DNA of 64,000 bases from Chrysaora quinquecirrha (lineage: Eukaryota; Cnidaria; Scyphozoa; Semaeostomeae; Pelagiidae), in contig JACTAT010000041.1 of assembly GCA_014526335.1 (NCBI GenBank), positions 398,420 to 462,419 on the forward strand, read 5' to 3'. Positions 1,890 through 54,116 of this stretch are shown in pieces; within the stretch, counting starts at the first letter, position 1; the number at the start of each line of letters is the position of its first letter. The notes beneath the pieces were generated by a model that was given only the letters and a program-made list of their open reading frames with translations, searched no databases and was not told where the DNA came from. Made by a program: the position numbers and the translations under genes.

Positions 1890-1897
1890 TTTATAAA

Positions 1898-2113
1898 CAG
1901 TGAAACGACCTGAAATGAGCTTAAACCACCTGAAACGACCTGAAACGACCTGAAACGAGCCGTCAAATTTGGAATCGAGGCTGAAACGACCTGAGACGAC
2001 CTGCTATCTTAGCAACGAATTGTTAAGGTCAAGGGTTTTGTATTGTTCTTTACGCATTGTCGCATTCTTTTCTTATCACAATAGGAACACGTGTCAGTAT
2101 CAAAGCGGCCATC
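1898..2113 (+). repeat. Left terminal inverted repeat of the 4.5-kb element
   Basis: Reverse complement of about 6217-6423. The outer ~90 bases are runs of TGAAACGACC-like decamers; the inner part is unique sequence kept at high identity in the two arms. Confidence 0.85.
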
Positions 2114-2215
2114 CTTTCAACAGACACCTAATTTTCTGCGAAAGACAGTCTATCCAATCCATAAGGGTCATTGGGCATGAGGGGTTTAAAGATGCTTTTG
2201 GGTACTATGGGAGTC

Positions 2216-2300
2216 CCAATACCGCAATACCGGGCCAAAAATCGCCGAATCGCCGAATCCTGAATATCGCACGAAAAATTGCAAAATACCGCAAATTGCT
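2216..2300 (+). repeat. Cluster of AATACCGC short repeats
   Basis: Degenerate copies of AATACCGC and related octamers. The same motif is clustered again in the same orientation at 4146-4250, and both clusters lie near a GCATGAGGGGT-like sequence (about 2176, and inverted at about 4265). They may mark the edges of a further nested repeat inside the TIR element, but the boundaries are not clean. Confidence 0.45.
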
Positions 2301-2841
2301 GAAGACTAAAATATCAGTATTGTTAATGTGATTATGACACAGAACACCAGTGTATAAGAATTTGAATCCATCCTTAATACATTTGTCCCATTTCTCCCTC
2401 CAGATCCGTAGTTAGGTCATGTTAAGCTGGACTAGCGAGCAAAGAGAGCGAAATTTGGGGTCTGGGGTTAGCCACTAGAAAATTTTTGGGACCATGCCGG
2501 AAACGCCCTTTAGTGTGCCAGGAAACGCCCTATTTTGGATAAAATGAAAGAATATCCTCGTTTTGGCAGAGATGAAACAGTCAATGAGGAGGAAAGAACT
2601 TAATAAGAGCGTAATTATAAACTCAAGAACCCAGGGTAAAACTCAAGACACAACATTGAGAGCTCTGAAAATTTTAGACAATTTTGGTTAAAAACTGGTC
2701 CCGTGTATTGCTTAACTTGTTATTATATGTCTTCTTGTTGTTTGTCTTGGAATTTTACCTGGTTAGAGTAAAATTCGTTTCAGACAGAATCTTGCTCCCA
2801 TAGTATGCACCGACAACGCTTCCTAGTGGTAGCCTAGTTGC

Positions 2842-3349
2842 CAGGGGCGCACATTAGTGGGATGTGGGTGTGACACCCCCAAATATTTTGTCAGTCGGTC
2901 CAGAAATTTTACCTTATTGGCAACGTCAGTCTAAAATTTGATTAGCAATTAGTCCAAAACTTGGACAAATTTGAAAAGTTTGGACCAGGAAAGTTCTCAG
3001 AAATCTTTCTGTAAAGTTATGAGTGAAGAACTGATATATCTAACGATAACAATCGATCCAGGACAGTTAAAATTGAATTCGGTCCCATGAGAATTGGAAA
3101 ATAGTCAGTACGGGACCAACACAGCGTTTTAGACGAAAACGATGAACATAAATCACTATGGGAATGCGTAGAGCACTTTGAGACGCTTGCTTTTTTAAAT
3201 TGTTGCTCGCCTAATTACGTATACTGTCTTTCCTTTCGGGAAAAGTCATTGGCAATTGGACATCAAAAGAGGCCCAGACGGTTCCCAAAATCTTAGTCTG
3301 TCCCATCTACGTTTACGCCCCCAAAAAATATTCTAGATGTCCGCCCCTG
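2842..3349. mobile_element. 508-bp hAT-type MITE with CTAGTTGC target-site duplication
   Basis: Starts CAGGGGCGCACAT and ends with the complement of CAGGGGCGGACAT. It is flanked by perfect 8-bp direct repeats CTAGTTGC at 2834-2841 and 3350-3357. CAGGG ends plus an 8-bp TSD are typical of hAT elements. There is no transposase inside, so it is non-autonomous. It sits within the larger TIR element, so it inserted later. Confidence 0.85.
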
Positions 3350-3357
3350 CTAGTTGC

Positions 3358-3893
3358 TCAAGAAAAGACGCACATTCTTGCATTTTGGTAATAATTCTTA
3401 TTTAGTTAACTTGGAGATCGCAAATGTAGACAACACGAACAAGTTCAGTGCAATGCCAACTGGCTGCATGAACTCACAACACGATACAGGATTAGTAGCT
3501 AACATTTCATTCCTGGCCTTTTTTGATCAGTTAAAAGAACAACTTCTGTATGATCTCAAAGATTGCAAACGTCTTGTCATTAATAAAGTGCACACCGAAC
3601 AGGGTACATCTGCAGGGTTCATTCAAGTGACTTAAAATCAAGATGCGTACATTATTTGCAGGGCTCACCGGGTGCTGGCCTTAGATATTCCAACATCATG
3701 GGAAATATAAAGGAATCATCATTGAAGCATAAACTGTACACATCACTGCAAACAGTGTCAGTCAAAAACGTCACTCACTCTTTCACATTTCAAGCCTACT
3801 GCATCGATGTTAAGTCTTGGAACCAAAAAGCAAAATCGCGCAACGCAAATGTAAAATCGCGCAAAAAAAATTGTAAAATCAACTAACCAAACG
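3358..3893 (+). other. Weak open frames inside the TIR element
   Basis: Two short plus-strand frames (3354-3635 and 3656-3886) occur here. Their composition is compatible with coding sequence, but I recognise no family and neither has a good start. The first begins inside the MITE's target duplication, so the frame was interrupted or created by that insertion. They may be part of an old element gene. Confidence 0.25.
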
Positions 3894-4145
3894 CAACCAA
3901 AATGTATCGTCGTGGAACAGAAATGTAAAGTCATGAAGTAAACAGAAAAATATCACAAATTACTGTCGAAAAAAGTCATATCTTTGGCCGGTTCGGTGCG
4001 CCAAAACAATCATACTGGCTGAATTTCACAATTCAATACATTAATCTTCTCTTCATTTCGACTTACTTTCTTGTATTGATGTCTGGTAACTCTTAAGTTT
4101 TTTCTTTTGCTATGGCTCTTAGCTGTTCCTTTCAAGGTTCGTAAA

Positions 4146-4250
4146 ATACCGAATACCGCGCTGTGAAATTTCAATACCGCAATACCGCCAGGTTTTTCCT
4201 TCAATACCGAAATACCGCGCATATTTTACCCCCGATACCGCAATACCGCA
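4146..4250 (+). repeat. Second cluster of AATACCGC repeats
   Basis: At least eight degenerate copies of AATACCG/AATACCGC in the same orientation as the cluster at 2216-2300. Confidence 0.5.
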
Positions 4251-5039
4251 AACCCCGAAGTACCCCTCATGCTGACTTTCGTAGACAAATTGAGTCTAAA
4301 ATGTGGCAACATGCGAACGACATTACGCAAAGGAAGATATCTAATACACAGGTATTTATTGATTTTCATTTCAACGGAGATAAGCAAGCATTTAAAGCAA
4401 AAACGTAAGCCTGTAAGCGATCAGCCGCGGCGCGCACCTTTTTTCATTAGTTTTAGGCCTAGGCCTACTCCAGGCTACACTTGCTAAAAATTAAAACGTC
4501 CGTTTACTCTGATAAATAAATGTTTCATGTTTAAACGTTTATAATAATCTCAACTATCGGTAGGCAGCTCCTTTGGCCTTTTGCAGGCCATGGTTATATT
4601 TATTTATTGGGAAGTTTAACATTTTATAGGCCTATTATATAATAAATAGGCCTAATTGTTTTGAATAGGCCTACTGTGAAAAAGAGAATGTGCAGAGTAA
4701 AATTTTCCTGCAAATACTTAGGAACACAGCATATTGACAGCAATTCTCCTAAGTTGGTGGTGTGTAGCCAAGCCAGTACAGGACGATAACGGCCACTCTG
4801 CATATGTCCTACCATCATTGGTAATAATTGTTTAAAAATTTGCTTGAACATTTATTTTTTCTTATAGAGAAAGGACGCAAGACTCTCAGGTTTGGAGCAC
4901 TTCCAATCTACCCGAAAAATAGCACCAAAGAAAGGAGACAATTGAGCGCCACCCATTGACAGTTGTGAAGGATATACCAGATAAAGAGAACAAGCCAAAT
5001 TACAGAAACTTGAATGTTGTTTATATAAGGACCCAGAAC
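4251..5039. other. Non-coding interior of the TIR element
   Basis: AT-rich, with several TAGGCCTA-like short palindromes (about 4455-4675). No coding region is recognised. The 70-80 codon frames here show no family pattern. Confidence 0.4.
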
Positions 5040-5042
5040 TTT

Positions 5043-5832
5043 TTAGCTACTTGTCTCATTCCTTTTTTGCGTTTGTGCTTTTATTCCTTTCCGTAGCCCA
5101 GTGGCTTTTTTGCTTTCCAAAAGTGTTTTTGTTTTTGCCATAGAAAAGGCACAGACCCGGAGGTACAATTCAATCATCTTTTGAAGTATGTTCACTTTTG
5201 CTTCTTCATCAATACTGCACTCTGAGTTTTCGATAACATTGTTAAACAAGCTCACAACATTGACATCACTCATCAAATTTCTTGTGATTCTTTTTAAATC
5301 AATTAAAAGGGTGTGGCAATTTTCCAAGTTGCAAAATGTTCCTCAACTACTTTGAACATTTGTTGTAGCTCTGGTTTTACTCCCACAAACCACCTCTTGT
5401 CTGGCACTTCACCAAACGTTGAGAGTCAAGATTTGTGGACCTTGCTGAGTTTAATACTGTGAGCATATCTTGGGCTTCTTTAGTTTTGCAGTTTTTATGC
5501 TTATGAATTTTCTTAACTAAAGAATGGACAACATAACCAGCCAAATATTGCAGGCCATCAAATTCACACTGATTTATTTTCTTCATTGGCAGCAGCACAG
5601 TTATAGGTTTGTTGAAATGAGCAAGGACTTTGTCTGCAACAAGAGTAGCCAGCATAGTACAGACAGGCATCTTCAAAGGGTGGAAAAGAATTGAGGCATT
5701 GACAACAATTGTTCCATAAAATGAACTATAAAACTTCTCTGCATTTGAATTTTTGCACAGTGACTGATAAAGCTTACTTATCTCTTTCAACATTTCTGCA
5801 TTGTGTGTTTGAAAAACACATTGCTTTGCCAT
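5043..5832 (-). pseudogene. Transposase-like C-terminal region, frameshifted
   Basis: Read on the minus strand, the first part (5832 to 5377) contains a helix-rich stretch with LQYLAGYVVHSLVKKI and ends at RGGLW. The frame then shifts by one, and the continuation (about 5375 to 5043) contains a VNILQKMIELYLRVCAFSMAK-like helical tail. The LAGYV and RGGLW signatures are those I associate with the C-terminal part of P/hAT-like transposases common in invertebrate genomes. The frameshift and a further stop near 5300 mean it cannot be translated as one protein. It lies inside the element with 8-bp TSD at 1898-6423 and is probably its remnant transposase. The superfamily is not certain. Confidence 0.55.
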
Positions 5833-5874
5833 ACGCTGACTGTTTCCAAAATAATAATTATAAAATAACTACCT

Positions 5875-5992
5875 CATTTACTGTCGCTGTGGGGGGATTA
5901 TTGTCGCAATGTTCTTCGAGATCTCCATCTTCTATCCAGTCAAATAACAAATCGAATTCTTCTCCCGTTACAAAATCGCCGTGTTTGGACGC
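5875..5992 (-). pseudogene. Possible N-terminal exon of the same transposase-like gene
   Basis: A minus-strand frame with an ATG at 5992 encodes an acidic segment beginning MASKHGDFVTGEEFDLLFDW and running to a GT at about 5874. An AG just before the next frame (about 5842) would give an intron of only ~33 bases, unusually short for an animal. The alternative is that most of the gene was deleted here and the two ends lie side by side. Low certainty. Confidence 0.3.
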
Positions 5993-12603: not shown

Positions 12604-13800
12604 TTGATAACTGCAGATTCTGAGACAAAGCCTATCATTGGAGTAATGGGTGTGTACGCTTCACGTTGTCGAGTAATCCCAGATTTAGATGGTGTTTTCC
12701 AGATTACCTTATTGAATGTTAACAATGACAATATAACAGTGCATTCCAGGAAATACGTTGGTAATTTAACCAAGGTGAGCGAAACTGTTTCCAAAGTCGA
12801 TTTAAATGAAACCAAGAATCCAACAAGTCTTCAGTCGAATGTATTTCACGGCAATGACATCTCTGCTAATGAAAAAGATCAGTTAATGGCATTAATTTCC
12901 AAATACGGAGATATTTTCGCTTCTAATCCAAGGAAACCGACACCCGTACGGAATATGACGCATCGTATAATCACAGAGGACGCTCAACCAGTGCGAATGA
13001 AGCCGTACCGTATTCCCCACGTTTGGGACAAAGAAGTAAGCAATCAAGTGCAACAAATGCTTGATAACGGCATCATTCGACCATCTGCATCGCCGTGGAA
13101 TGCCCCAGTTATCCTCGTAAAAAAGAAAGACGACTCTATGCGCTTTTTTGCGATTTTCGTGGGCTTAATAACGTCACCAAGAAGGATTCCTACCCGCTAC
13201 CACATATTCGTGACGTGATCGACAAAATGCATGGAGCAAAATTCTGGACAACTCTGGATGCTGCTTCTGCATATTGGTCGATGCCAGTAGCAGAAGAAGA
13301 CAAAGACAAAACTGCTTTTTCTGTGCCAAGAGGGAAATTTGAATTCAACGTCACGCCATATGGACTATGTAAAGCGGGAGCATCCTACCAACGGATGATG
13401 GATATCACTTTATCAGGACTTCCTTCAGATCGCGTCTTAGCTAACATGGACGACATTGTAATCTTAGTGGAAATTTCCAAGAACATCTCCATAATCTTGA
13501 ACAAGTGTTCCAACTATTGCAATCATCGGGGATATCGCTTAAGCTCTCAAAGTGTGTTTTCGCCAGCGACAAGGTTAATTTTCTAGGTTTTCAGCTTTCG
13601 AATCGAGGAATTAAGCCACAAACCCGTCTTACCGAAGCAATTGACAATTATAAACGCCCAGAAACTAGGAAGGAATTAAAAGGATTTCTAGGTTTAGCCG
13701 GATTTTACAGGTCGTTTATTCAGAATTTCGCCGATATTTGTCAACCTTTAAACAAGCTAACTAGCGAACTGTTCCCTTCCAATGGGACGATTCTTGTGAA
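12604..13800 (+). pseudogene. pol: Gypsy reverse transcriptase, frameshifted
   Basis: The first frame (12604 on) carries the N-terminal RT region (PYRIPH..., DNGIIRPSASPWNAPVILVKK). A shift in the T-run near 13145 moves the reading to the next frame, with DFRGLN, LDAASAYWSM and TPYGLCKAGASYQRMM. The catalytic box at about 13443-13454 reads NMDD, where a Tyr is usual in the first position. A further shift near 13500 leads into the FLGFQLSNRGI and RKELKGFLGLAGFYR segments, and another near 13780 into the RNase H. Several independent breaks make this copy unlikely to code for active enzyme. Confidence 0.88.
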
Positions 13801-15180
13801 GCTGCCTTCTCTGTTTTAAAACAGAAACTGTCATCCCAGCCAGTTTTAAGCTTCCCGCAATTAGGAAAACCGTTTATTCTCGAAGTTGATGCTAGCAACC
13901 ATGCAGTTGGCGGAGTTTTATCACAAGTTGGAAGCGATGATCGTATACATCCAATAGCGTACTTCTCTACAGCGTTACAATCTTCGCAAAAGAACTGGTC
14001 GGCAACCCACAAGGAAGCATTCGCTCTAGTGTAATCATATGAAACTAAATGAAGACAAGTGCCATTTGGTGATTTTTGGTCGGAAGGGTGATGAAGTCTC
14101 CATCAAAATAGGGGAGGCTAGCGTGAAGGAAAGCAATGAGGAGAAGCTTCTAGGGATACCGTTTGACCAAACGTTAAGCTTTAGGCAGCGTGTAAAAACT
14201 CTTTGCAAAAAAGCTAGCCAGAAGCTTCATGCACTTGCCAGAATATCCTGCTACATGGGCACGGAGAAGCTAAGTAAGGTGATGCAGGCATTTGTCTTGT
14301 CTCACTTTAGTTATTGCCCACTTGTCTTGATGTTCTATGACCGAACTTTAAATCGTCAAATTAATCATATCCATGAAAAAGCATTGCGTCTCGCATACAA
14401 TGACAATCAAACAGACTTTGAGTCCCTTCTGGAGCAACGGAATCTAGAGACCATCCATTTAAGGAACCTACAGCTGCTTATGACTGAAGTATATAAAACT
14501 AAGTCTGACCTGAACCCAGCATTTATGAAGGACATTTTCATGGATCGTAATACTGGTTACAACCTAAGACCAGGTAACAATTCACAGATTCCAAAATTAC
14601 ATACAACAACTTATGGAGTTGAAACTATATCCTTCCTTGGAAGCAAACTCTGGCGGAATTTGCCAATTGCGGTGAAAGAAGCCAGCTCACTTTCTGTTTT
14701 TAAAGCACAAATTAAATGCTGGAAAGGTCAGGATGGCAACTGTAGGTTATGTAAAACATATGTACCACAGGTTGGGTATCTAACATATGATCTAGACATT
14801 ATTTTTCCTTTTTATATTTTAGATATTTGTAGAATTCTAAATTAATACGTATTTTTTTAGTTAGTAGGCCTTAATTAGCTTAATCAGCTATTTTATTGTA
14901 ATTAAGCCTACTTTCAATAAATTGATGATGATGATGATGATGATGTGCGCAGTCAGACATTGGCACGTTTATCTTGCAGGCGCAAAGTTTGTTTTAAAGT
15001 CTGACCATAATCCTCTTACACATCTGCGTGAACAGAAGGATCCACGTGGTAAGTTCGCTCGTTGGCTATCTGAGTTAGAAAAGTTTGACTATTCCATCCA
15101 ATACATTCCGGGCAAACTCAATATCAAAGCCGATACCCTATCGAGAAATCAAGCGGCAAGTCAAGTTCAGCCATCAACCA
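13780..15180 (+). pseudogene. pol: Gypsy RNase H, split by a LINE insertion
   Basis: The 5' half (about 13780-14031) has FILEVDASNHAVGGVL, with the first catalytic Asp at 13888, and the NWSATHKEAFALV segment. The reading then stops at a foreign insert (14032-14945) and resumes at CAVRHWHVYLAGAKFVLKSD through DHNPL and IPGKLNIKADTLSRN. The gypsy codons meet exactly across the insert, so the insertion caused no other loss. Confidence 0.88.
14032..14945 (+). mobile_element. 5'-truncated LINE fragment nested in the gypsy element
   Basis: A 268-codon open frame (14039-14845) matches the C-terminal part of non-LTR reverse transcriptases. KLNEDKCHLVIFG is the thumb-proximal KT/KCH segment, followed by LGIPFDQTLSF and SHFSYCPLVLMFY, with an NLRPGN segment and conserved EKALRL. 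The insert ends in CAATAAATTGATGATGATGATG: a poly(A) signal-like AATAAA and a short (GAT)n tail, as in CR1/L2/RTE-type LINEs. Only ~910 bp of the 3' end was copied, typical 5' truncation. The open frame is intact, so the insertion is young. Confidence 0.88.
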
Positions 15181-15299
15181 ACTTTGAGGAAAAGGTATAT
15201 GCTCTGTTCGTTAATCAGGATAGTTTTCGCGTTCAGTTGAAAGAGGAACAATCGCGAGATCCCTTGATTTCAGATGCCACAAAATGTATCCTGAACGGA

Positions 15300-16484
15300 G
15301 AAAAAATTTCATCAGGCAAATTTTTTCAGTTGCAGCTGCGTGTCAGTGATGGTTTGCTTACAAAATCCGGCCACCCTGTCATTCTCCTTCCTTACGAAAA
15401 GTTATCGTCACAGAATACCACAATATTGCTCATTTTGGCACCGACAAAGTGTATTCGTTGTTAAAAGACCGTTATTATTGGCCAAGTATGTTCAATTGCA
15501 TCAAGTCGTTTTGTCAAGGCTGTGAAACCTGTCAGAAAACAAAGTGCGCGACATCTCCACCCAAAGCACTACTTACGAAAATGTTTATCCCGAATGCACC
15601 GATGCAATTTCTTTCTATCGATATCGTCTATTTGCCTAAAGATCACGATGGCTATCAATATATTTTGCTCATTGGCGATAATTTTTCGAAATTCGTCCAA
15701 GCTGTACCCTTAAAAGATCAAACAGCATCGAAAATAGTTGATGCCTTACTTAGACATTGGATTTATGTTCATGGCAGCCCTCTCTATCTCCTGTCAGATC
15801 AAGGCTCAAATGTCGACGGAGAAATCCAGCGAAAGCAAAGCAACCCACTGCGTTCCCTACAACGTGGTTTTCGGCAGATCCGTCATCTTACCTCAAGACA
15901 TTGCTTTCGACAATGCCACACCAGACCAGCACGACGAAATTCTGCCAGCAGACTTCCAATATGCAACCAGTTTGTTATTGAAAGATATCTTCTCTAATGT
16001 AGTAGATACTTTGGAGATTAGTAAGCGGAAGATGCAGCAACATTATAATCGAAATCTCCGTTTTATCGATTACACTGAGGCTCAGCAAGTTTGGCTGAAA
16101 GTAAAGCATTATAAGACAGGCGAAAACCGCAAATTGGCACCCCGCAGAGAAGGTCCATGGACGATCATAGCTAAGTTACCGAACGGTGTAAATTTTCAGA
16201 TCGAGAACTCTCGCAAGGAACGAAAGATAGTACACCACGATCGCCTTCTACCTGTTGTCGACAATGGATTTCAAAATAAACCCATCCCAAAGACAACATC
16301 CGATGAAGAATTGAATTCAAGTGAAAGTGAACTTTCAGACGGCAGCGATTATTCGTATTCAGATTCTGATTCCAGTGTAAACGATGAGGTTGAAAATGAT
16401 GGTTTCAACAGAGATCGACCAAGAAGACTGCGACAACATCGATATTTGCCAGACACTATTCCTTGGGGTGCACTTCGTGTCTAG
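15300..16484 (+). pseudogene. pol: Gypsy integrase with deleted core segment
   Basis: The HHCC zinc-binding region (about 15417-15540, with HNIAH and CETC) follows a frameshift near 15410. The catalytic core has the first Asp at 15620 (SIDIVYLP) and the second at 15797 (LLSDQGS). Directly after the second Asp (about 15815) the sequence jumps to a PYNVVFGRS segment in another frame, so the part with the catalytic Glu is missing. The C-terminal frame (15738-16484) has LAPRREGPWTI, the GPY/F module of gypsy integrases, and an acidic Ser-rich tail. No chromodomain is seen. Confidence 0.85.
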
Positions 16485-20629: not shown

Positions 20630-22122
20630 GTCTGTGCAGTACAGTGGAGGCTGTGCAGTACAGTGGAGGCTGTGCAGTACAGTGGAGGCTGTGCAGTACA
20701 GTGGAGGCTGTGCAATACAGTGGAGGCTGTGCAGTACAGTGGAGGTTGTTCAATAAAGTGGAGGGATAACATCAGTACGGTGGGGGGATAACATTGAGTA
20801 CAGTGGAGGCTGTGCAGTACAGTGGAGGCTGTGCAGTACAGTGGGGGGATAACATCAGTACGGTGGGGGGATAACATTGAGTACAGTGGAGGCTGTGCAG
20901 TACAGTGGAGGCTGTGCAGTACAGTGGGGGGGATAAAATCAGTACGGTTGGGGGATAACATTGAGTACAGTGGAGGCTGTTCAGTACAACGGAGGGATAA
21001 CATTGAGCACAGTGGAGGCTATTCAGTGCTGTGGAGGGATAACATCAGTACAGTGGAGGGATAACATGATGCGTGTGGGGGGATAACATTGAGTACAGAG
21101 GAGGCTGTTCCGTACAGCGGAAGGATTACATGAGTACAGTGGAGGATGTTCAGTACTGTGGAGGGATAACATCAGTACAGTGGAGGGATAACATGATGCG
21201 TGTGGGGGGATAACATCAGTACAGTTGAGGGATAACATGATGCGTGGGGAGGGATAACATCAGTACAGTGGAGGGATAACAGGATGCGTGTGGAGGGATA
21301 ACATCAGTACAGTGGAGGGATAACATGATGCGTGTGGAGGGATAACATCAGTACAATTGAGGGATAACATGATGCGTGTGGGGGGGGGACAACATCAGTA
21401 CAGTGGAGGGATAACATGATGCGTGTGGGGGGATAGCATCAGTACAGTGGAGGGATAACATGATGCGTGTGGGGGGATAGCATCAGTACAGTGGGGGGAT
21501 AACATCAGTACGGTGGGGGGATAACATTGAGTACAGTGGAGGCTGTGCAGTACAGTGGAGGCTGTGCAGTACAGTGGGGGGGGGATAAAATCAGTACGGT
21601 TGGGGGATAACATTTAGTACAGTGGAGGCTGTTCAGTACAACGGAGGGATAACATTGAGCACAGTGGAGGCTATTCAGTGCTGTGGAGGGATAACATCAG
21701 TACAGTGGAGGGATAACATGATGCGTGTGGGGGGATTACATTGAGTACAGAGGAGGCTGTTCCGTACAGCGGAAGGATTACATGAGTACAGTGGAGGATG
21801 TTCAGTACTGTGGAGGGATAACATCAGTACAGTGGAGGGATAACATGATGCGTGTGGGGGGATAACATCAGTACAGTTGAGGGATAACATGATGCGTGTG
21901 GAGGGATAACATCAGTACAGTGGAGGGTTAGCATGATGCGTGCTGAGGGATAACATCAGTACAATTGAGGGATAACATGATGCGTGTGGGGGGACAACAT
22001 CAGTACAGTGGAGGGATAACATGATGCGTGTGGGGGGATAGCATCAGTACAGTGGAGGGATAACATGATGCGTGTGGGGGGACATCATTGAGTACAGTGG
22101 AGGCTGTGGAGTACAGCGGAGG
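20630..22122 (+). repeat. Minisatellite with ~650-bp higher-order repeat
   Basis: Built of two kinds of short unit: about 19 bp (TACAGTGGAGGCTGTGCAG) and GGGATAACATCAGTACAGTGGA or GGGATAACATGATGCGTGTGG blocks. A block of mixed units at about 20850-21250 reappears almost unchanged about 650 bp later at about 21498-21900, giving a higher-order repeat. Long minus-strand frames rich in Leu, His, Cys and Pro (for example 20431-21003) are translations of the repeat. The array starts inside the gypsy relic tail. Its edges resemble those of the array at 62.6 kb. Confidence 0.92.
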
Positions 22123-28964: not shown

Positions 28965-30125
28965 ATTTTCGGGCATACTTAAAAGCTTTTTTCGTCTGAC
29001 ACTCCTCAGAGTATGAACGTCAGAAACAGACCGAAACAATAGACTAAGGCTGAATTTATACCCAGATGCGGCTCGAAATGCACCAATCAGAAAGAACGAA
29101 AAGCTGAATTGGCATTGTGTTTTAAACACCAATCAGCTGGTCGGATACAGCGGAGGACCAATGAATTATTTGAAGAGTCCAAGTGAGAAAACGAACTCTT
29201 TCTGTCTACACAGAACCGGCCTTTTGGTTTTGATGTAGACAGATTCCAAAACCCCTAAGTGAAACAAAGATCTTGCTTTGCCAATGATTCTGAAAAATCC
29301 TCGCTGTAATTTTCTGCACAAATCGGGTTATCGAGTAGATGTTGTCCTATGGCAGAATCATGTTTAAGACTAGGTTGTTGTTTAGACCCACGGGGTGGTT
29401 GCTCTCTTTGCCGAAAATTATGCAGACGAATGTTAGTAGGGACATGCTGCTTTATCCTATCACCTAATCTCTGGGAAGTACGACCTACGTACCTGGCATC
29501 ACACCGGCACGAGAATTCATAAATGACCAAACTTTTTGTGTGGTAGGTACGCAATCCTTTTGAATGGATGGTAGAACTTTCCGAGTGCCAAAAACTAACC
29601 GAGGGTTGGCAGCAGCGAAGCACTTAGTAATGGCCTTTTTAATTTGACTTTCGAATCGCAATGAGACGTTTCCTATCCAAGGCATTTTTAGGTAAACAGG
29701 GCACTTTTGCGGACCATACTTTTTATCAGCCGAAAAACTTGCGATCTTCTTGCGAAAACAATCCGAAATGACGTCCTCAGGGTAACCGTTTTCAATGAGA
29801 ATAGACCGTATTTTATCCAATTCCGAATCAAGCCGAGATTTAGAGCAAATCATAAGTGCCCGATGAACTAGCGTGTTGATGAGGTTAATTTTCCTCTGTT
29901 TTGGACTAAAGGAATCCCACCGTGTATAGAGGCCGCTAAAGGTTGGTTTCCTATATATACTGGTGAGAAATCCAGTAGCAGTGTTTTCAACAAAGACGTC
30001 GAGAAACGGCAAAGAGTTGTTTTGCTCCTTTTCAAAAGTAAATTTTAGAGACGGATGCATGGCGTTGAGTTTTTGGAGGAAAACGTTACAATCGGACTCT
30101 TTTTGAAAATGGCGAAAGTGCTCTT
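28965..30125 (-). mobile_element. Penelope-like retroelement, 5'-truncated, with GIY-YIG endonuclease
   Basis: From high to low coordinates: the end of the RT (about 30120-29640), with FLQKLNAMHPSLKFTFEKE, NNSLPFLDV and IYRKPTFSGLYTRW, signatures of Penelope-like RTs; a linker (NVSLRFESQIKKAI, NPRLVF); then a GIY-YIG domain at about 29530-29440 (VIYEFSCRCDARYVGRTSQR). The catalytic Tyr of the first motif and the YVGRT motif are visible. A frameshift in an A-run near 29540 separates RT from endonuclease. The 3' flank (28965-29255) is shared with a solo fragment at about 31220-31460. Confidence 0.88.
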
Positions 30126-33334: not shown

Positions 33335-34546
33335 TCAGTTGTAGCAACAAATCATATTTCCCTGGAACTTGTTCTCTAACGTCGATGTTCCATTTCGAAG
33401 GTCATTTTTTATAGTTTTTAACCATGTATGATTGGATCTTCCTTTTCTATTTTTACATTTTTTCAGTGTCTCCTTTAAGGCAATGGTTCTCACTTTCAGC
33501 TCTTCACTGATGATTTTAGAGTTGAAAATGTTTTTAAATTTTCTGTAGCCGTTGATTGTTTGACCCCTTCTTGAGCAGTTGTCTTTTGTGATGTCTAGGA
33601 AACTGACAAGCAGCTTGCAAGTTTTCCAGTCTGGTGAGTTATTCACTGGTGTAGGTGGAGTGTAGTTCACCAACCAGTCTCGCTCTGACCAGCAGATTTT
33701 GTCATTCTTGTGTGAGATGAGTTCCTCCTATGTTGGTTTTTGAGGAGAAGACGGTTGAGGTCAAAGTATTTCGAAGATTTCGGTTTTAGTGGTGTTGAAA
33801 TCGAGATCATTTCGCTTGAGTAGGGGTGATACTTGTTCCTGTACTAGCTTGTGTGTATCTGAGCTTGTTGTCAAGTATGTCACATCGTCTGCGTACTTTG
33901 GTTTCAGCAGGAAATCTTGCCCAGGGTCAATTAGTGTGTGTTCACCGACTAATGTTTCAGCAAGGTAGAAAATGAAGAGTATTGCACTAAGGCAATCACC
34001 CTATAGAATTCATAGGAGCGTTTTGAAAGATCTTCCTTTATTTCCATTTTCCCTCACGTGTATTAATGGTGTGTTTATTAGAAGATGGAGCAGATGCAGT
34101 TCATCAATGTTTAAGATTGATTCTAGATGGTGAAGAGTTCTTCTCTGTTAACTTTGTCAAAGGCTTTTGACATATCGCAAAGGTCTAAGTAGCTACACCT
34201 TGTATTCACTAGCATTTATTGCTTTTTCAAGGATAATTTTTACTGCCACCACTTGTTCAGTAGTGGATCGTCCTAGCTGGTAGGTGGATTGCTCTTTGGC
34301 GATTTTTTCTGATATCCTATCCCATATTCTATTTAACAGCATAATTGTGAGGATTTTTCGAAGTGTTGATAGAAGCATTACTGGTAATAGACTTAAACAT
34401 TGACCTTTGGGTTTGCCAGGTTTCTGCAATGGTATAAGTATTCCCCAGTTTATTTCTTTTTGGGCGTCGCCAGTTGCTGCCCTGCTCTTGTGGATACCTG
34501 CTATTTCATTGTGTACATAAAATAACATATGGAAAAGTAATTTCAC
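33335..34546 (-). mobile_element. LINE reverse-transcriptase relic
   Basis: Reading down: 34546-34193 has WGILIPLQKPGKPKG, LLSTLRKILTIMLLNRIWDR and YQLGRSTTEQV (RT motifs 1-2). A broken middle has the catalytic YADD box at 33884-33895 (KYADDVTYLTT), followed by a KTEI-like segment near 33790. The end (33673-33335) has WKTCKLLVSFLD and a terminal helical region. Several frameshifts. The plus-strand element at 34616 lies directly next to its upstream end. Confidence 0.85.
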
Positions 34547-34615
34547 AATCCTTGATGAAAAGAATATTTATGGACAATACATGTCTCTGGACAGTAAAAA
34601 AGAACCTAACAGAAC

Positions 34616-35102
34616 TAGACAGGTCAGTGAGCACAAAAATCTAAGCAAGTGGGTAACCTTTGTTTTGACACCAGATTATGATATTTGGAGGTATAACGAT
34701 CATTTTGAGCGGTCGTGCCATTTCGAAAAATGGGGGCAAGTCACGTGCCTGATGACGTCATTTTTGTGGGGTCATTTTCTCTAAAATGAGCTGTAACTCG
34801 CAAAATACTTGGCCGACTTGGTTAAAATTGTTTCAAACACCATGAAATTACATGCCCTTTCATTTGGTATACGGCGCGATATATTTTGGGAAATTCCGCA
34901 AATGTTTTTTCGAATTCAGCGACTTTTTGATGACGTCATAAATAAATCATGCTAAAAAGTTCACTTCTCGAAAAAATGCTTGATCGTTTCAGTCGCAAAT
35001 GGCTTCAAACAACGTAAGCCTTCAGTCTACATATGGCTCGTAATATATTTGATAACAGTTTAACACCCTCGCCAGTGGTTTTTCCGTCCATTCAACAATG
35101 CG
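34616..35102 (+). repeat. Left TIR of the 3.0-kb element
   Basis: Inverted copy of 37140-37617, including TGATGACGTCATTTTTGTGGGG and ACATATGGCTCGTAATATATTTG. Contains TGACGTCA palindromes. Confidence 0.88.
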
Positions 35103-37252
35103 TTGCTATGCTTAGTGGCCGCGTTGTGAGGGGATACTGAAAAGCTTCTTCCAGGTTGGTGGCTTTAGCTACGAGCATACCAAATGCTTGTTGATCTTCT
35201 TTCAGGGCTGTCACTGCTTTAGGCTGCTGTTTACTTTTTTCAAGGCCAGTTTTAAGCTTGACTTTTTTGATGTTGTCAAATAGTGACTTATCTCCCTTTA
35301 CGAGGCAATCAGCAACAAATTCCTTGAAAGACTTATCACCCGTTTCTTCTGCATTCAATAGACCATTTATGATATATTTGTCAATTTCTGTGCCAGTTGA
35401 CATGGATCTTGCTGGCCCATCACCAAATGGATCATTACCATATTCCCTGAGTTTCTTTCTAAGATTCATAACATGCGTATTATGCATTTTTTATTGCCTG
35501 GAGTTAATTCCTTATGGCCCGATGAAGTCTTAGCATGCAAATTTTCTTTTAATGTCGATCTCATTCTGCAGTGTATATGATATGTAGAAATCCATCTGTT
35601 TACTGCATCAGTATTTGTACTATACCCAGCTTGAACGGACCCGCAGTGCCTTTTGTTGCTCCATTAAAATGTTCTGTTACCAAATCACCATGTATACAGC
35701 TAAAGATGTCCCCACCTTCACTGGCTCCATGGCCTCTTAATGCCAAATCATTGTAAGCTTCTTGTCTGCTATCTTCTTACCTACGTAAGTAAACGTGTTG
35801 ATAAGTGTTGTATCTACCATAATGAATATGGTCGAAAGCGAAAACTGATTTTAGCATTTGCCTTTCTGCTTGGAGATGTCTTTCAAAATCTTTTTCTCAC
35901 ACTGCAGAAACAAGCGCAAGCATCAAGGATACGTCCATTAGACGGTCATCTTTGCCTGTGTTCCGCCTGTTGCATTATCTGGAGTTTCAATGCGTGAAAT
36001 GCTTTCAGTCCAAGTATCTTTTCTAGAGCTTGCGACGAAGGGTTTTTCCACAGTTCTACCAATCTTTGTTTCAGATTTTTGTCAATATTCACGTAGTTAG
36101 CCGTTACGTCTTCTACTCTGTTTTGGACCAGTGCATCGAACGCCTCCTTGTGCAAACGCATGCAGCGGTAATAGTGACGCCCCTTCTGTGCTTGCGATAA
36201 GAAGCCGGAGGCAATCGAGCCAGCATCAACAAACCAGTCACCATATCCCATACAAGAATGCCGCTTATAGAGAATCTTTTGCAGTACTCTGAGCTGATGA
36301 AACCCACCCATTACTGGAATAATGTTTTTATATGTTATTCCCCACACTTAAGTCTTAATCAAAGCATTGGTCAAGGATGAACTTATCATCTTTGTCTTCA
36401 AAAATTTCGAGCCGCTGCGGTCCTATTAGTTTTCCTATCCTGTAATCTTCAATGTTTTGTGACTTAGGATCTAGTATACTCAGTTTCGAAGTATCCGAAA
36501 GCTTCTCTTTCTCATGCACATCTGGTGTCTCACCTACATTAAAACATAACAGAAAATATATAAGCATGCAGAGATTTTTCTTAATTGCTATTACATACAG
36601 CACATAGAATGTGTTATAGCTACTTATCTGGTAGCAAAGGCTGGAAAAGCAGCCAATTGGTGTTGTGGGTTGTTCCTGCACCAGAGAAGTTTCCTGTCTC
36701 CCATCGTTGTTATCGAGACTCGCATGGGTAACGTTGACTCTTCAGACCATGAAATAGTTGCTTTGCAGGTGCAGCCGTACTAGACTATTTGTCATTTTGA
36801 TGTAAAACGTCCTCGTAAGATATTGCATGGCCTGCTTTGTGTAATATTTTGGATACTTTTTTGCTTGCAGTTAGCTGATGCACTGTCATGCCTAGCATTA
36901 TTTGATTTGATGATTTTTCTTTTGCTATAAGCGATTGCCAGTCCCCAGCTATTGACCATATCTTTTTTGCCATTTGTTGTGCTTTTGTAATGGCATACCC
37001 CTTTTCATTTAATCTGGCTGAAGGGTACAGTGTAAGAAAAATTGCATTGAATAATTCTGATTTCATAGACATCGCATCTGAAATACTCATTGGAAATTCT
37101 TTTTTCAATTCTGTCACATAATTGTCGACCTTCGCAGTCCTCGCATTGTTGAATGGACGGAAAAACCAGTTGCCTGTGGTCAAATATATTACGAGCCATA
37201 TGTAGACTGAAGGCTTACGTTGTTTGAAGCCATTTGCGATTGAAGCGATCAA
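35092..37252 (-). pseudogene. DDE-type transposase-like gene, broken (DNxD / GGFH family)
   Basis: Pieces run from high to low coordinates. 37252-36785: helical N-terminal part ending VSKILHKAGHAISYEDVLHQ. About 36730-36640: a DNND segment followed, after a one-base shift, by TTHNTNWLLFQ. 36681-36355: acidic linker. 36347-35946: VMGGFHQLRVLQKILYKRH, AGSIASGFLSQAQKGRHYYR, CMRLHKEAFDALV. 35487-35092: C-terminal part. The DNxD...THxTN and GGFH...GRHYYR...HKEA motifs parallel VADNVDHN...TFHGMG and GGLHVIM...GKAIARAIRGH in the transposon at 47725-53657. I infer a shared catalytic core. Stops and frameshifts make it inactive, and no nuclease-like or CXC part is seen. Confidence 0.6.
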
Positions 37253-47410: not shown

Positions 47411-47724
47411 CTGAAAATGAAAGAGAATGGTATAGCCAAAATCCACTTTTCAAAAACTTAACCAATGAAGTCATGCTAAGAATTAGAATACTCAGATCCA
47501 ATCAGAGTATAGACGGAGACCAGAGGTTTTGATGTTTCCTCTCTATCCAATGACGTTGAAGCGTGAATATCGCTGCAAACTATCTTGCATAATCACCTAC
47601 AGTTTATCGATTTGTTTTTATTTGTAACGAGTACGAGTTCACCTATTTTAGTTACTTTGCCTTCTAGTTTTGATAAACGTTGTGCGTTGTATGAATTGGC
47701 GGCGGGGTTATTCTAGCTTTTTGT
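47411..47724. other. Wnt intron, 3' part
   Basis: Non-coding; CTTTTTGT at 47717-47724 is the left target duplication of the 5.9-kb transposon. Confidence 0.7.
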
Positions 47725-47820
47725 CAGGCCTTATTTTAAGGCTCAGTGATAACCAATTTGTGCAGTGATAAAGTAAAAAGGTGCAGTGATAAATGCAAAA
47801 ATGAGCAGTAATAAATTGAC
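47725..47820 (+). repeat. Left TIR and subterminal repeats of the 5.9-kb transposon
   Basis: 16-bp TIR followed by four CAGTGATAA/CAGTAATAA copies, candidate transposase-binding sites. Confidence 0.8.
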
Positions 47821-48237
47821 CTTGCAAAAAAAATTAAGCCATTACACTATACAAGAAAAAATTTCAGAAAGAAACTGATCAAGCAAATCCGAAAGAAGCA
47901 TGCAATGAGAGTGATTTGCGACTTGCTGTATAAAAAGCATTCTTAGCTGTTCTTTTGCATTCTTTTTTCTGGCTTTCTCTTATTAAAATTGGCCGACAAA
48001 GCCGTTCTAGCAATCTCAATTTTCAACATTTTCCAGGGGCTAATTTTCCTGGAAACCCCTAGAATAGTGCAGCATTACCTTACCTGTAAGTTACATTGTC
48101 GTTATCTTGCGGGGATGCGGCAACCCCTTGGTCTCAGGCCTGTCGGCAACTTGTCTCTAATGCGGGCGCTGTTTGCAACTGAGAAAATTTAGGTCCAAAA
48201 TATTTCTATCGCAACAATAACCTCATTTGAACTTCCT

Positions 48238-49649
48238 TGCATCGTGATAACTGATGAAACTGCTGCAGTTACACTAAGAGAAAAGGGCTGTATAGGTATT
48301 TTAAAAGCAAGTAAGGAAAGAGGTGAATGTTTTGATGTACAACCTGGCCAACATGCTCACGTTGAATGTCGTCGCATTTATTGTCACCCAAAGAAATTCA
48401 GAAAGCCGCCAAAAGAAATGACTTTTTAAACGGCGCTGATGATTGTAAGCCAAAGCTAAGATCTTCGGAGTCAAAGTTTAACTTTAGAGAGCATTGTTTA
48501 TTTTGTGGGAAACCTGCCAGCCTTGGTCAAAAATGCAACAAGAGAGGTTTTGATACCTATCCTGTGAGGACTAAGGATTTTGACGCCAGTATTAAATTTG
48601 TGTGTAAAAAAAGAGATGATCAGTGGTCGGAGGAGGTCATGGCAAGAATCATGTCTGCACCTGCTGATCTACATGCTTCTGATGCAATCTACCATCAAGT
48701 GTGCAGTGTTAACTTCAGGACTGGAAGAAACAGTCCAAACATTGACCAAACTGAAGGGAAAAAGGTTGGAAGGCCTGAATCTGATGTACAAAGTGAGGCA
48801 TTTTTGAAAGTAGTAGAGCATTTAACAAATAACGATGATGAACAAATCACAGTTTATGATTTGATCGATAAGATGGAGAATTTTCTTGAAGGTTCAGGAC
48901 ATAGTGCATACACATATAAGTGGATGAAAAGCAAGCTAGAGAAACATTTTGGCGACAAAATAACAATTACGGAGATTAATGGTAAAACAAATGTTGTCAC
49001 TTTTAAAAGAACTGCCGCAATAATATTACACGAATACCACATGCAGTCTACGCAAGATCCGGAAACAGAGAAAAATATTATTATTTCTACAGCTGCAGAG
49101 CTTATTAAGAGCGACATAAAATCAATATTACCAGACAATCAATATTATCCTGTTGACGATTTATGTTCATTAACTGCTATGTTGGATTACCTGCCAGACA
49201 GTTTAAAATCATTCTTAGGAATTTTGCTATGTGCAAAGAATGCCCAAGTAAAATCAGCATCATTGGGACAAGCCCTTATGCAAGCTGTAAGACCACGTAT
49301 TCTGACAGCTCCACTGCAAATTGGCTTAGGAGTGCAGCTTCATCACCATTTTGGTTCGAGATTTTTGATAGATACCTTACATAGTCTAGGCTTTTCAAGT
49401 TCTTATGCTGAGGTGCAAAGATTTGAGCGGAGTGCAGCAGTTTCAAATGGAGTAGACCTACCACTAGGGGTGGAAGGAGGCATGATACAACTTGTTGCAG
49501 ACAATGTTGACCATAACTTAGTAACACTTGACGGTAAAAATACTTTTCATGGAATGGGAATAATTGCCACCATAACACCAGAAGTAATATGTAAGAAGTA
49601 TGTTCCCAAAAAAGAATGTTACTGCTGCAGAAATTGCTGCTGTTGGTAA
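48238..49649 (+). pseudogene. Transposon gene, part 1: Cys-rich N-terminal modules and first DDE-like motif
   Basis: Reading starts near 48238 (CIVITDE, then REKGCIGI and HVECRRIYC: a Cys/His-rich module). Near 48405, in an A-run, it shifts by one into the frame 48366-49649, which has a second module (HCLFCGKPASLGQKC, then YHQVCSVNF), a helical region, and VADNVDHNLVTLDGKNTFHG at residues ~377-396 of that frame. The DNVD (first Asp at 49500) followed by TFHG is the candidate first catalytic motif of a DDE-type nuclease. The frame runs off at an A-run near 49607. No true start codon is certain. The family is widespread as an uncharacterised protein in invertebrates, from memory. Confidence 0.7.
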
Positions 49650-50403
49650 GATAGATATAAATTTTTACAAGAATAATGGGAAGAAGAATAGTTTAAAGTA
49701 TGAACTGATAAAAGATTTTATTGTCGAAGATGCCACATCACACATCGATCTCTTGTGGAAAATTACGTGGCCTTTGAAGTCCCCTCGACCTTTATGGTCG
49801 GGAATGATGCAGATGCTTCATGTTGGAAATCATCCCGGAAAATCTTCAGTAATTTTTCTTCCAATGATAGATATGGACCCCTCAGACCTTTCATGTGTCT
49901 ATTCCACATTGAAGTTTGCTTGTAAACTTGGAAATGAACATGGCTTTGTGCCCGTAATTACATTTGACCAGCCATTATGGTGGAAAGCTACATTAATTAA
50001 ATTGGAAAAAATTGATGATGGCGACTTAAAAGAAGTCATTTTGAGATTGGGTGGGCTGCACGTTATTATGAGCTTTCTGGGAAGCATCGGGCATATCATG
50101 TCCGATTCAGGATTGTACGAAGTACTAGAGCAAGTTTATGCTAGTAACGTTGTAGTTCACATGCTCTCAGGAAAAGCAATTGCAAGAGCGATACGTGGAC
50201 ATTTCCTTGTTGAAACGGCCCTGTTTGGGTTAATATGTGATGAAGTATTTCATGTGCCTTTGCCTGTACCTGGAGACACTGATGTTGAAAGTGGGTGCAC
50301 TAAAGGAGAAGAGTACAATGATCGCGAAATGATAGCCGGAGATAATCACCAGCTAAGCGAGATCGTTAGTTCAGAAAATGAAGGCAGTGCAGTTGAAAAA
50401 TAG
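49600..50403 (+). pseudogene. Transposon gene, part 2: second part of the DDE-like core
   Basis: This frame continues part 1 with KKNVTAAEIAAVGKI. It contains FVPVITFDQPLWWKA (Asp at 49966, residue 123, a candidate second catalytic residue), then GGLHVIMSFLGSIGHIM, LSGKAIARAIRGHFLVETAL (a candidate region for the acidic third residue) and an acidic tail. The GGLH...GKAxxRAxRGH pattern parallels GGFH...GRHYYRxMRLH in the 3.0-kb element at 34616-37617. The stop at 50403 arises at an A-run; useful reading continues one base over from 50409. Confidence 0.7.
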
Positions 50404-50408
50404 ACAGC

Positions 50409-52691
50409 GATTTGTTGAAAGCAGGAGACATATTTGATAAGCTGTTCACATCTGATATTGGAATCCAAGATATTTCCATATGTGAGGACTTAGAGAAAGT
50501 GTCGAATAAATTGGAGATTTTCAAAGAAAGGCAGGAAGGCAGAACTGCGAAGCTTTGGTTCATATACTTGTAAATGCTGGACATCCTACGTCGATTCATC
50601 AAAGCAGAAAGGACTGGAAATTGGCAGCTCCACCTCAGTTCAGGTTCAGAAATGTTGCCTTTTTTTGCTGCTTCAGGTCATAACCATTACACTAAGTCTG
50701 TGATGATATATTTGAAGATGATGCAATCACTTTCCAAGGATTCGCCTGGTGTTCATCAGCAGTTTTGCAGAGGTCTTCACGTTGTTAGAAGAAGTGAGCG
50801 ATATTGGGCTGGCCTCTCAACAGATCTAATAATTGAGCAAGTTCTCATGCGCAGTGTTAAAACAACAGGTGGTCTGACTCGCGGTAGAGGTATGACAGAG
50901 AATCAGCGTCTTGTGTGGCTCCTGTCTATGCCTGCATGCGCAGAAGTCAATAACTCCATGCAAGAACTGACTGAAACACGCTATGCAACAAGTATGCAAC
51001 ACAAAGATCTATCAAAAACAAGGCTCACTAGAGATGAAACGGATTCAAGAAATATTCTAAACTTCTTGGTGGACAGAAATCCATTTTCAAATGACACTAG
51101 TCTTCATAATATCGCGACCGGGATTATAGCCGATGGAAAAGTGAATGTTGATGAAGCAGAGTCGGTAGGCAACGCCATTCTAAAATCTATGTCAGGAAAG
51201 CAAATTGACGAGTACGTTCACAAGAGGAAAGAACAGGTTGTTACAATGGGTAAAAATACGCTTAAATGCGACAAAGAAGCGGTCCAAATTGACCCTCAAT
51301 TGCTATTTCAAAGATTGGTGACAGTTGCAAGAAGTGAAGTGGATGACCTAGAGCCCCTCATGAACTATGAGCTTTGCAGTTATCCACAAGCACTTTTTGA
51401 GGCACCAAATGTTCTTCGAAAAGCTAATAAGCCAGCTTTGACAGAAGTAATAATGAAAATGGTAACAGAAGAGGGTAGTTGTTGCCCTGATAGCCCAAAG
51501 TATGTTTTAGATGGAGGTGCATTAGTGCAAAGGGTTCCGTGGCAGAGAGGTGCTTCTTTTGGAGATATTTGCAAGAATTATGTCCACTTTGTTGTCCAAA
51601 GGTATGCTAATGCAACTGTTGTTTTTGATGGCTATGCAAATGGACCATCTACGAAAGATGTGACACACAATAGAAGAACACAAGGAAAAATCGGCCCATT
51701 TGTGAATTTTACAGCAAAGATGCCTCTTCGCAGTAAGAAAGAGGAATTCCTCAACAACAAATGCAACAAGCAAAACTTCATCAACATGCTAAGTGATGTT
51801 CTTAAAGAAAATGGCGTAATGACCATCCATGCTGACGGAGATGCTGACCTACGCATTGTTATGACTGCAGTAAATGCAGCTGAATGCCAAGAAACTGTCG
51901 TCATTGGTGAAGACACAGATTTATTAATGCTGTTACTTCATCACGCAAATACTGAAACCTATCCTGTGTTCCTTAAATCTGAGCCAAAGCAAAATTCTAC
52001 AAGTAAATCTAACGTATTCGACATTCATAAAATCAAAACGGTACTTGGAGACAGAATGTGTAGATTAATTTTGCCGATACATGCTTCCCTCGGTTGTGAT
52101 ACGACGTCGAGGATATTTGGAATTGGCAAAGGAGTCGCTTTCAAAAAGGCTCTTAAAGATACAGGATTTGGCGAAGCTCTATCTGTTTTCAATGATGAAA
52201 GAGCGAGTTCAGACGACATAATTTTAGCTGGAGAGACTTTGGTAGTGCAATTGTTTGGAGGAAAACCGCAAACTGACCTCAATGGTCTTCGCTACAAAAT
52301 TTTTTGCCAGAAAGTAGCAAGGTGTAATGCATTTGTGGAATCAAAGAGCCTCCCGCCTACAAAAGGTGCAATGAAGTATCACAGCTTTAGAGTATACTAT
52401 CAAGTTCAGGAATGGAAAGGAAACAAAGATCTTAATCCTACAGACTGGGGTTGGAAGAAAGATGGAGACTGTCTCTTGCCAAACACAACAGATTTGCCGC
52501 ATGCACCAAAAGATTTATTGGAAGTAATACGTTGCAATTGCCGAAAAGATTGCAACACTCTAAGATGCACATGCAAGAAAAATGGGCTGGAATGCTCAAC
52601 TGCATGTGGACACTGCCATGGAACAAACTGCATGAACTCTGTTAATACACTGATACACGATGAGGCATTTGAAGACGAAGAGCCAGAATAG
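50409..52691 (+). pseudogene. Transposon gene, part 3: FEN/XPG-like nuclease core and CXC zinc module
   Basis: Reading resumes at 50409, crosses one TAA (50571-50573) and is then open for 705 codons (50574-52691). N-terminal half: GHNHYTKS, then RSERYWAGLSTDLIIEQVLM and GGLTRGRGMTENQRLVWLLS. Nuclease-like half: VVFDGYANGPSTKD (Asp residue 352), HADGDADLRIV (421/423/425), VIGEDTDLL (447/449), HASLGCDTTSRIFGIGKG (Asp 509). The order Asp, acidic cluster, xEDTDxL, GCDxxxxIxGIGxG is that of FEN1/XPG-family 5' nucleases, with the last element like their helix-two-turn-helix. The C-terminal CXC module, residues 654-687, has CNCRKDC...RCTCKKNGLEC...CGHC. The FEN assignment is inference from motif order. 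Confidence 0.75.
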
Positions 52692-53310
52692 GGAGCATTT
52701 CAAAACCAAATCGAATGAACGGCGCCTCCGCAGGGTCTGATTTAGATATTGACAAGGCTTTTCGTATTAATTTTGTTGAAATAACTGTTTTATTGACTTT
52801 TGTTGACTTTTCATGACAATTCTTCACCAGGATATGTTATTTGGTTGATAATTAATGATAATTTAGCAAGATTTTTGTTGGTTTGCGCCTCCGCAGGGGA
52901 ATTACAATCGTATAAAAACAAATGACGCATTTTCTCGTTTTCTTTAAGGGAGATTTTGGGGGACTTTTGATATGTTGTTCAGCATGCTTTTCTGACTTGA
53001 AAAACACTTGAATTGTTTCTGTTGCAATTTGTCCGAGGTTTGGGCTTTTTTTTCCGTAATTTGACTAGACTAATAATTAGCACTATTGAGTATCATACAT
53101 TTACCACAGCCCTTACTTAATTACTGATTATTAACGACTGTCTACTGTATGTAAACCTCCAAATCTCCATTTCTTAATGGTCCTGTGGCTCTAAAGCTTA
53201 TGGGGCTGCAACATCCCGCAATCATTCTCATCAGCCATAGTCGTCCTTAGCATCGATCTCTATTGGATTGGCAAACTGGATAACGGCTCAGAAAATTGTA
53301 ATTTATAGGT
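52692..53310. other. 3' non-coding part of the transposon
   Basis: Two copies of GCGCCTCCGCAGGG (about 52721 and 52886) are the only notable repeat. No gene. Confidence 0.5.
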
Positions 53311-53560
53311 TCCGAAATGGTCATTAGAGCGATTCTAGATCAATATTTCTCAAAATTTTTCCGGGGAGCATGCCCCGGACCCCCTAGTCGAGTGATCCTT
53401 TTGTGAATATTTTTATTTTCAAGTTTCCCTGTTTTGTGCCCCTCCACTTTTAAAAGTGTTCCGATGTCGGGCCCATCGTAGCACGCAGATCACACCAATT
53501 TTTGTCGGCAAATTGAAATTCGGCAACTCCTCCTGCTTGAAAGTTCTAGCGACGGCCCTG
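53311..53560 (+). mobile_element. 3' fragment of the CAGGGCCGTCC hAT-type MITE family
   Basis: GTCATTAGAGCGATTCTAG, then GGGGAGCATGCCCC, GTCGGCAAATTGAA and the end GCGACGGCCCTG match in order the last ~260 bases of the element at 18928-19687. The 5' end is missing. It is nested within the 5.9-kb transposon and clearly diverged. Confidence 0.7.
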
Positions 53561-54116
53561 CGTGCAATTCACTGCATTTTGATTCAAACTCATTTTTGAT
53601 TCTGTACCTAATTTGTGCACAATGTGCAGTGATAAAATTTTCTTAAAATAGGGCCTGCTTTTTGTTCCTCGTTCTATCGTTCCTATAGTTTAGTACAGTA
53701 ATTTGAAATGTATAGTAGAATGTTACGGATGTATTGTAAAAAGTTATAGAAATAAGTTTTTAAGAAATCGAAGAAAGAGTTGTCAACAGAAATGTGGTGA
53801 TTGCCAATTGGAAAATTTGCTAAAACTACTAGCTACATCTATGTCAGAATTATGTTCCAAAAAATTTCTTTTAAAATTTGTAACAAATTTGCAGCAGTTT
53901 GGCATCTCTTGACTGTATTATAGTCAAAGGTCTGTCCCTGACCAGCAGCGTACACTAAGCAAAGTTGAAACCTTCCTCTCTTTTCTGGGCGTGGCAAATA
54001 TTTTCCTTTGTTCTTATTGACCTTTCTCTAGTGAATGACCGTTTGACCGTAACTTTTTCCAGGGTCTGTAAAGTTCTACTTCAATCTTCATCTTTTGAAT
54101 TCTGATCCTATTTTAA

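Follow-up and report, generated by a model that had tools for sequence, protein, structure and literature searches.

A 64,000-nucleotide stretch of the genome of the jellyfish Chrysaora quinquecirrha (GenBank assembly GCA_014526335.1, contig JACTAT010000041.1, forward-strand positions 398,420 to 462,419), here called the window, contains a transposon copy of 5,933 bp at window positions 47725–53657. This copy is most probably a frame-broken, end-complete representative of a cut-and-paste family whose mechanism would combine a P-element-like DDE transposase with a FEN/XPG-type nuclease, and which would be distinct from an AcademX-like sister family in the same genome. The family is mobile, has terminal inverted repeats (TIRs), generates 8-bp target site duplications (TSDs), and has given rise to deletion derivatives.

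Ends and genomic copies of the element

The ends of the copy are formed by 16-bp TIRs, CAGGCCTTATTTTAAG on the left (47725–47740, plus strand) and CAGGCCCTATTTTAAG on the right (53642–53657, minus-strand reading), which agree at 15 of 16 bases and place the outer ends at 47725 and 53657. A perfect 8-bp TSD, CTTTTTGT, lies on either side (47717–47724 and 53658–53665). Internal to the TIRs, a subterminal 12-mer, GTGCAGTGATAA, is present on the left in two exact versions and two with two mismatches, starting at 47741, 47760, 47781, and 47803 (array 47741–47814, plus strand), and once, exactly, on the right (53624–53635), on the same strand as in the left array. As all five 12-mers are on the plus strand, four on the left versus one on the right, the array is asymmetric.

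The genome (328 Mb in 740 contigs) was searched with window positions 47720–47900, which yielded at least 40 left-end matches including the window itself (a lower bound, 40 of 86 candidates having been scored); the TIR was reached by 37 of the 39 others. Twenty of these 39 loci were read over about 7.5 kb and 19 over 1.2 kb, four of the latter being re-read over about 7 kb. An end was accepted when a TIR 16-mer with at most three mismatches was accompanied by a nearby 12-mer, and the best end pair per locus was kept, a choice that tilts the outcome slightly towards matching TSDs. Under this rule, both ends were present in 25 of the 40 loci and the second end was absent in 15. Perfect 8-bp TSDs, all different, flank 18 of the 25 two-ended copies, none has a single mismatch, and seven have two to eight mismatches; base composition predicts 0.0006 perfect matches in 25 copies. 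When TSD lengths of 2–12 bp were tested, 12 copies had an exact 8-bp match and none matched at 9 bp.

The 8-bp TSD, the 15/16-bp TIRs, and the subterminal repeats had already been noticed in an earlier note on this DNA, and all of them were found in the window; the ends recur genome-wide with 8-bp TSDs. The left end thus led to other copies sharing the TIR and the 8-bp TSD, the pair is not restricted to the window, and the view of the sequence as a mobile element is borne out. A chance combination of TIRs and TSD, which was also considered, is ruled out by this recurrence with perfect, differing duplications.

All 24 two-ended copies besides the window copy are short (0.7–1.5 kb) and gene-less. 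Over the first 386 bases, the best of the short copies shares 99% identity with the window copy, and for this reason movement was probably recent and the family has probably been mobile until recently. A profile search of the 39 other loci revealed no second window-type gene (15 of the loci being read over 1.2 kb only), so that among the 40 left-end loci the gene is seen in the window copy only. This would fit an arrangement in which the ends belong to a family resembling miniature inverted-repeat transposable elements and happen to enclose a gene of other origin, either inserted there or belonging to the host. Such an arrangement is very improbable, however, as the short copies lack just the gene part (about element base 514–4967) and the 20 loci read over about 7.5 kb retain element bases 1–521 and 5348–5933, whole or in part; moreover, the homologues of the gene are DDE transposases by predicted fold, and a homologous sister gene in the same genome is enclosed by its own TIRs and TSD. 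As judged from sequence, three things tie the gene to the ends: the window copy itself, the pattern of deletion in the short copies, and the sister element.

The gene of the window copy

The gene extends from about 48238 to 52691 with shifted frames and is carried by the overlapping frames 48247–48513, 48381–49616, 49597–50352, and 50340–52664, in which the motif residues are still present. The transposon had been described as complete, with a single intronless gene; completeness holds for both of its ends, but not for the gene, whose reading frame is broken. The protein motifs reported earlier were all located, and they are arranged along the plus strand as follows. A first N-terminal Cys-rich module (CIVITDE..CRRIYC, 48238–48513) is in a frame different from that of the next module. 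Open reading frame (ORF) 1 (48366–49649) contains the second Cys-rich module (HCLFCG..YHQVCSVNF), a region whose counterpart in the P0132 model is winged-helix-like (the winged-helix-like matches being those of the homologue), and the first proposed catalytic Asp in ADNVDHN (49497–49517). The second proposed catalytic Asp is in ORF 2 (49600–50403), within TFDQPLWW (49960–49983), followed by GGLH within 50047–50061. ORF 3 (50574–52691) comprises the proposed catalytic Glu in STDLIIEQVLMRS (50817–50855), the FEN/XPG-like nuclease, whose core (51504–52133) includes VLDGGALV, VVFDGYA, GDADLRIV, GEDTDLLM, and GCDTTSRIFGIGKG, and a Cys-rich CXC-like tail (52533–52616).

Direct searches with the window sequences gave little. 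A Pfam scan of the three ORFs detected no family at E ≤ 1, including DUF6589, helicase, and THAP families; a PHROGs search gave a single chance-level match (E 0.081), and ORF 3 matched a single solved structure by sequence (E 0.67). An Rfam scan of the window found nothing at the gathering score, and a scan of viral_contigs with the homologue P0121 confirmed no relative.

Predicted folds and active sites of the protein family

By predicted fold, the homologues of the window protein consist of a DDE transposase and a FEN/XPG-type nuclease, with a Cys-rich CXC tail in addition. Named members occur in a sponge, sea spiders, molluscs, echinoderms, cnidarians, and fish, and their database names are mostly “hypothetical”, “uncharacterized”, or “Tesmin/TSO1-like CXC”. 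One of the named proteins, the Nymphon striatum “ERO1-like protein beta” (P0074), is a model in which an ERO1 domain is fused to the transposon protein, probably through a gene-model fusion.

Five positions are invariant in alignment A3: D433 (DNVD), D589 (FDQP), G617 and H620 (GGFH), and E862 (IEQ). In the predicted model m33615b125f2a, D433 is located in strand 427–437 (beta1), D589 just past strand 585–588 (beta4), G617/H620 just after beta5, and E862 in helix 857–876 (alpha4); between strand 613–616 and the catalytic helix 857–876 there are only helices, i.e., a predicted all-helical insertion. In the nuclease half, D756, D795, D865, D867, D889, and D950 are invariant in alignment A2 and D891 is nearly so, consistent with the acidic active site of the FEN/XPG (Rad2) nuclease fold predicted for this part. 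Together with the recurring ends, these predicted folds support the earlier proposal that this protein family is the transposase of an element making 8-bp duplications.

The best structural match of the homologue's predicted fold is the P element transposase, as obtained by VIA-align re-ranking of Foldseek candidates; Foldseek alone gave nothing at E ≤ 0.001 for the N-terminal plus DDE model, and P was not among the best 50 matches listed. P had been named earlier as just one of several candidate transposases, and its place as the closest solved fold goes beyond that. In the P transposase, as described in PMC8230255 and PMC7776569, D230 lies in beta1, D303 in beta4, a [C/D](2)H signature after beta5, and an insertion domain precedes E531; the GTP-contact residues of that domain are listed in PMC7776569. 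The window family resembles P/THAP9 in its predicted RNase H core with D-D-E on beta1, beta4, and alpha4, in the predicted helical insertion between beta5 and alpha4, which the structural match to P spans, and in the 8-bp TSD. It differs from P in having G(2)H instead of [C/D](2)H, a spacing between the two Asp residues of 156 residues in a window-type homologue versus 73 in P as described, an added nuclease and CXC-like tail, and no THAP family in five long homologues (Pfam, E ≤ 0.1).

These resemblances raise the question of whether the family belongs to the P superfamily itself, having gained an XPG-type nuclease and lost the THAP domain. In addition to the best structural match and the equal TSD length, zebrafish P-like elements, according to PMC7776569, are similarly built, with 13-bp TIRs, 12-bp subterminal repeats, and 8-bp TSDs. 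We nevertheless regard membership in P as unlikely: no P or THAP family was among the Pfam matches listed for the window ORFs, the homologues, or the sister, sequence homology points to the 3-bp-TSD sister and DUF6589 instead of P, and the [C/D](2)H signature is replaced. The predicted DDE domain with its helical insertion may also resemble that of hAT transposases (Hermes). The TSD of hAT elements is 8 bp.

A sister element with 3-bp duplications and the placement of the family

A second, related transposon was found in the same genome. Locus L014 contains a short copy of the window family together with part of this sister transposon, whose left end lies outside the locus, and locus L052 (G000:C2:8405000-8414500) contains a whole sister transposon with both ends read. 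Homology between the sister protein at L052 and the window protein begins at the second Asp, takes in the XPG half, and continues almost to the end: aligned to the A2 profile, the sister sequence (two frame pieces joined with X) reaches 158 bits (E 2.6e-50 for a set of three sequences), with the first-Asp region unaligned, and its 651-aa second part has an hhalign probability of 98.9% (E 2.6e-17). Its TIRs are about 300 bp long and begin with TAGTTGGG, and the TSD at L052 is the 3-bp TTA. This copy sits in an apparent Penelope-like reverse transcriptase (recognized by eye), the frame of which continues across the joined flanks. A search with the sister TIR gave 18 matches, seven of which pair into three elements and 11 of which are unpaired; the TSDs of the three two-ended copies, read by eye from the flanks, are TTA, CAA, and TAT, all of 3 bp. 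In one of these elements, some 1.4 kb divides the right end into two pieces.

Two further traces of the sister lineage were noted. In the window, broken ORFs on the minus strand at 35092–37252, with “VMGGFHQL” and neighbouring motifs, appear by eye to be a decayed sister-lineage gene. In the databases, a sister-type protein (P0264; 42% identity over 47% of the query) is filed under a Nitrosopumilus metagenome-assembled genome, an archaeal bin that was probably contaminated with animal sequence.

In PMC10045372, AcademX elements are described with a nuclease and 3–4-bp TSDs and AcademH elements with a helicase and 9–10-bp TSDs, and the helper enzyme is suggested to relate to this difference. 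As a homologous nuclease-bearing element with 3-bp TSDs, the sister fits AcademX as described, the name being given by features only, without a reference Academ sequence. The window family, too, is like AcademX in encoding a DDE transposase and a nuclease together, as indicated by the predicted folds and conserved residues of the homologues. The nuclease of AcademX is of the XPG type. On the other hand, the window family is unlike AcademX as described in PMC10045372 in its TSDs of 8 bp rather than 3–4 bp, and its TIRs, 16 bp long and accompanied by a subterminal array of 12-mers, differ from the approximately 300-bp TIRs of the AcademX-like sister. AcademH is nearer in TSD length class (9–10 bp, again from PMC10045372), but no helicase family was detected in the window ORFs or, at E ≤ 0.1, in the homologues P0121, P0123, P0131, P0221, and P0165.

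A quick tree was built from 44 proteins: ORF 3, the sister, 15 of 235 listed proteins, and 27 of 60 from a second listing. In it, a branch with a Shimodaira–Hasegawa-like approximate likelihood ratio test (SH-aLRT) support of 100 separates the window type from the rest, a value from a quick method whose program warns that long branches meet. On the sister side, there is an intermediate group of eight proteins (P0268–P0289), six of which have a Cys-rich tail by eye, and this group scores above most of the sister group against the window-type profile.

The window lineage therefore appears distinct by TSD, TIR, and tree, yet kin to an AcademX-like element. Of the two options once offered for it, a divergent lineage or a new one, divergence is upheld by TSD length, while the lineage is not wholly new, its kin being the 3-bp-TSD sister. 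The chance that it is a plain AcademX transposon with an 8-bp-TSD lineage, adding no more than one family to an established superfamily, is put at only slightly below even: the homology to the sister and the nuclease described for AcademX speak for it, the differences in TSD and TIR length and the placement on one side of the tree speak against it, and it would be compatible with the mechanism proposed below. With TSDs outside the range described for AcademX, the rank of the lineage is perhaps that of a superfamily. A P-element-like DDE transposase fused to a FEN/XPG-type nuclease and making 8-bp duplications might, as a tentative proposal that falls somewhat short of even chances, define a superfamily-level animal lineage. 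If so, TSD length would follow the transposase lineage and not the helper enzyme, and processing of the second strand, for which other transposases use a hairpin or extra cuts, would fall to the nuclease.

With regard to the literature, open-licence articles in PMC included no paper joining Academ, XPG, and TSD, although Repbase or other papers may describe the lineage; terms for XPG/flap endonuclease and transposon gave none on transposons by title among the papers listed, and tesmin with transposase gave nothing on this protein family, judged by title. In a bivalve survey (PMC10294476), 100 curated Academ elements averaging 5,565 bp in length are reported, and some of these may belong to the window lineage.

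Relation to DUF6589

The Pfam family DUF6589 (PF20231) was matched at E ≤ 0.1 by six of seven homologues (four of seven at E ≤ 0.001), the best of them scoring 26.4 bits where the cut-off is 27, and at E ≤ 0.1 by six of 20 homologues in another Pfam scan. It also matches the DDE part of the sister at 33.9 bits, which is over the cut-off. DUF6589 has no stated function and, as noted above, is matched by the homologues and the sister, not by the three window ORFs; open-licence PMC literature on it contained nothing relevant. Because of its matches to the homologues and the sister, DUF6589 probably represents a DDE transposase domain and appears to form the catalytic portion of the transposases discussed here. 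It would thereby gain a likely function, and large, mostly uncharacterized animal proteins would become readable as transposases.

Proposed mechanism of transposition

The preferred reading of the window copy, a P-like DDE transposase joined to a FEN/XPG-type nuclease, suggests the following scheme. The N-terminal Cys-rich and winged-helix-like domains would bind the TIRs and subterminal repeats. The P-element-like RNase H domain, with Asp on beta1, Asp at beta4, and Glu on alpha4 past the all-helical insertion, would make the 3′ cuts, and the 3′ ends would be joined to target sites 8 bp apart; the spacing is read directly from the TSDs, and the chemistry is suggested by the predicted fold and the invariant residues. 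Processing of the 5′ strands is most likely the task of the fused FEN/Exo1/XPG-type nuclease, which may either cut the non-transferred strand at excision or trim 5′ flaps after strand transfer, which makes it a candidate second-strand-processing enzyme. The gene-less copies of 0.7–1.5 kb would be mobilised in trans by gene-bearing copies.

It can be argued that the transposase, and not the nuclease alone, sets TSD length: the genome harbours two homologous families that both carry a nuclease, yet one makes 3-bp and the other 8-bp TSDs, which disfavours the nuclease alone as the determinant. In addition, the P-like fold connects P elements with nuclease-bearing transposons in a concrete way that can be tested.

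Other features of the window

Several features were recorded outside the element. Positions 20758–22052 contain a minisatellite-like array of 18 GTGGAGGGATAA units, often spaced at 22 bp. Broken ORFs at 12604–16484 appear by eye to belong to a Gypsy-type long terminal repeat retrotransposon polyprotein, and ORFs on the minus strand at 29485–30060 and 33338–34567 resemble, also by eye, pieces of Penelope-like and long interspersed nuclear element (LINE) reverse transcriptases.

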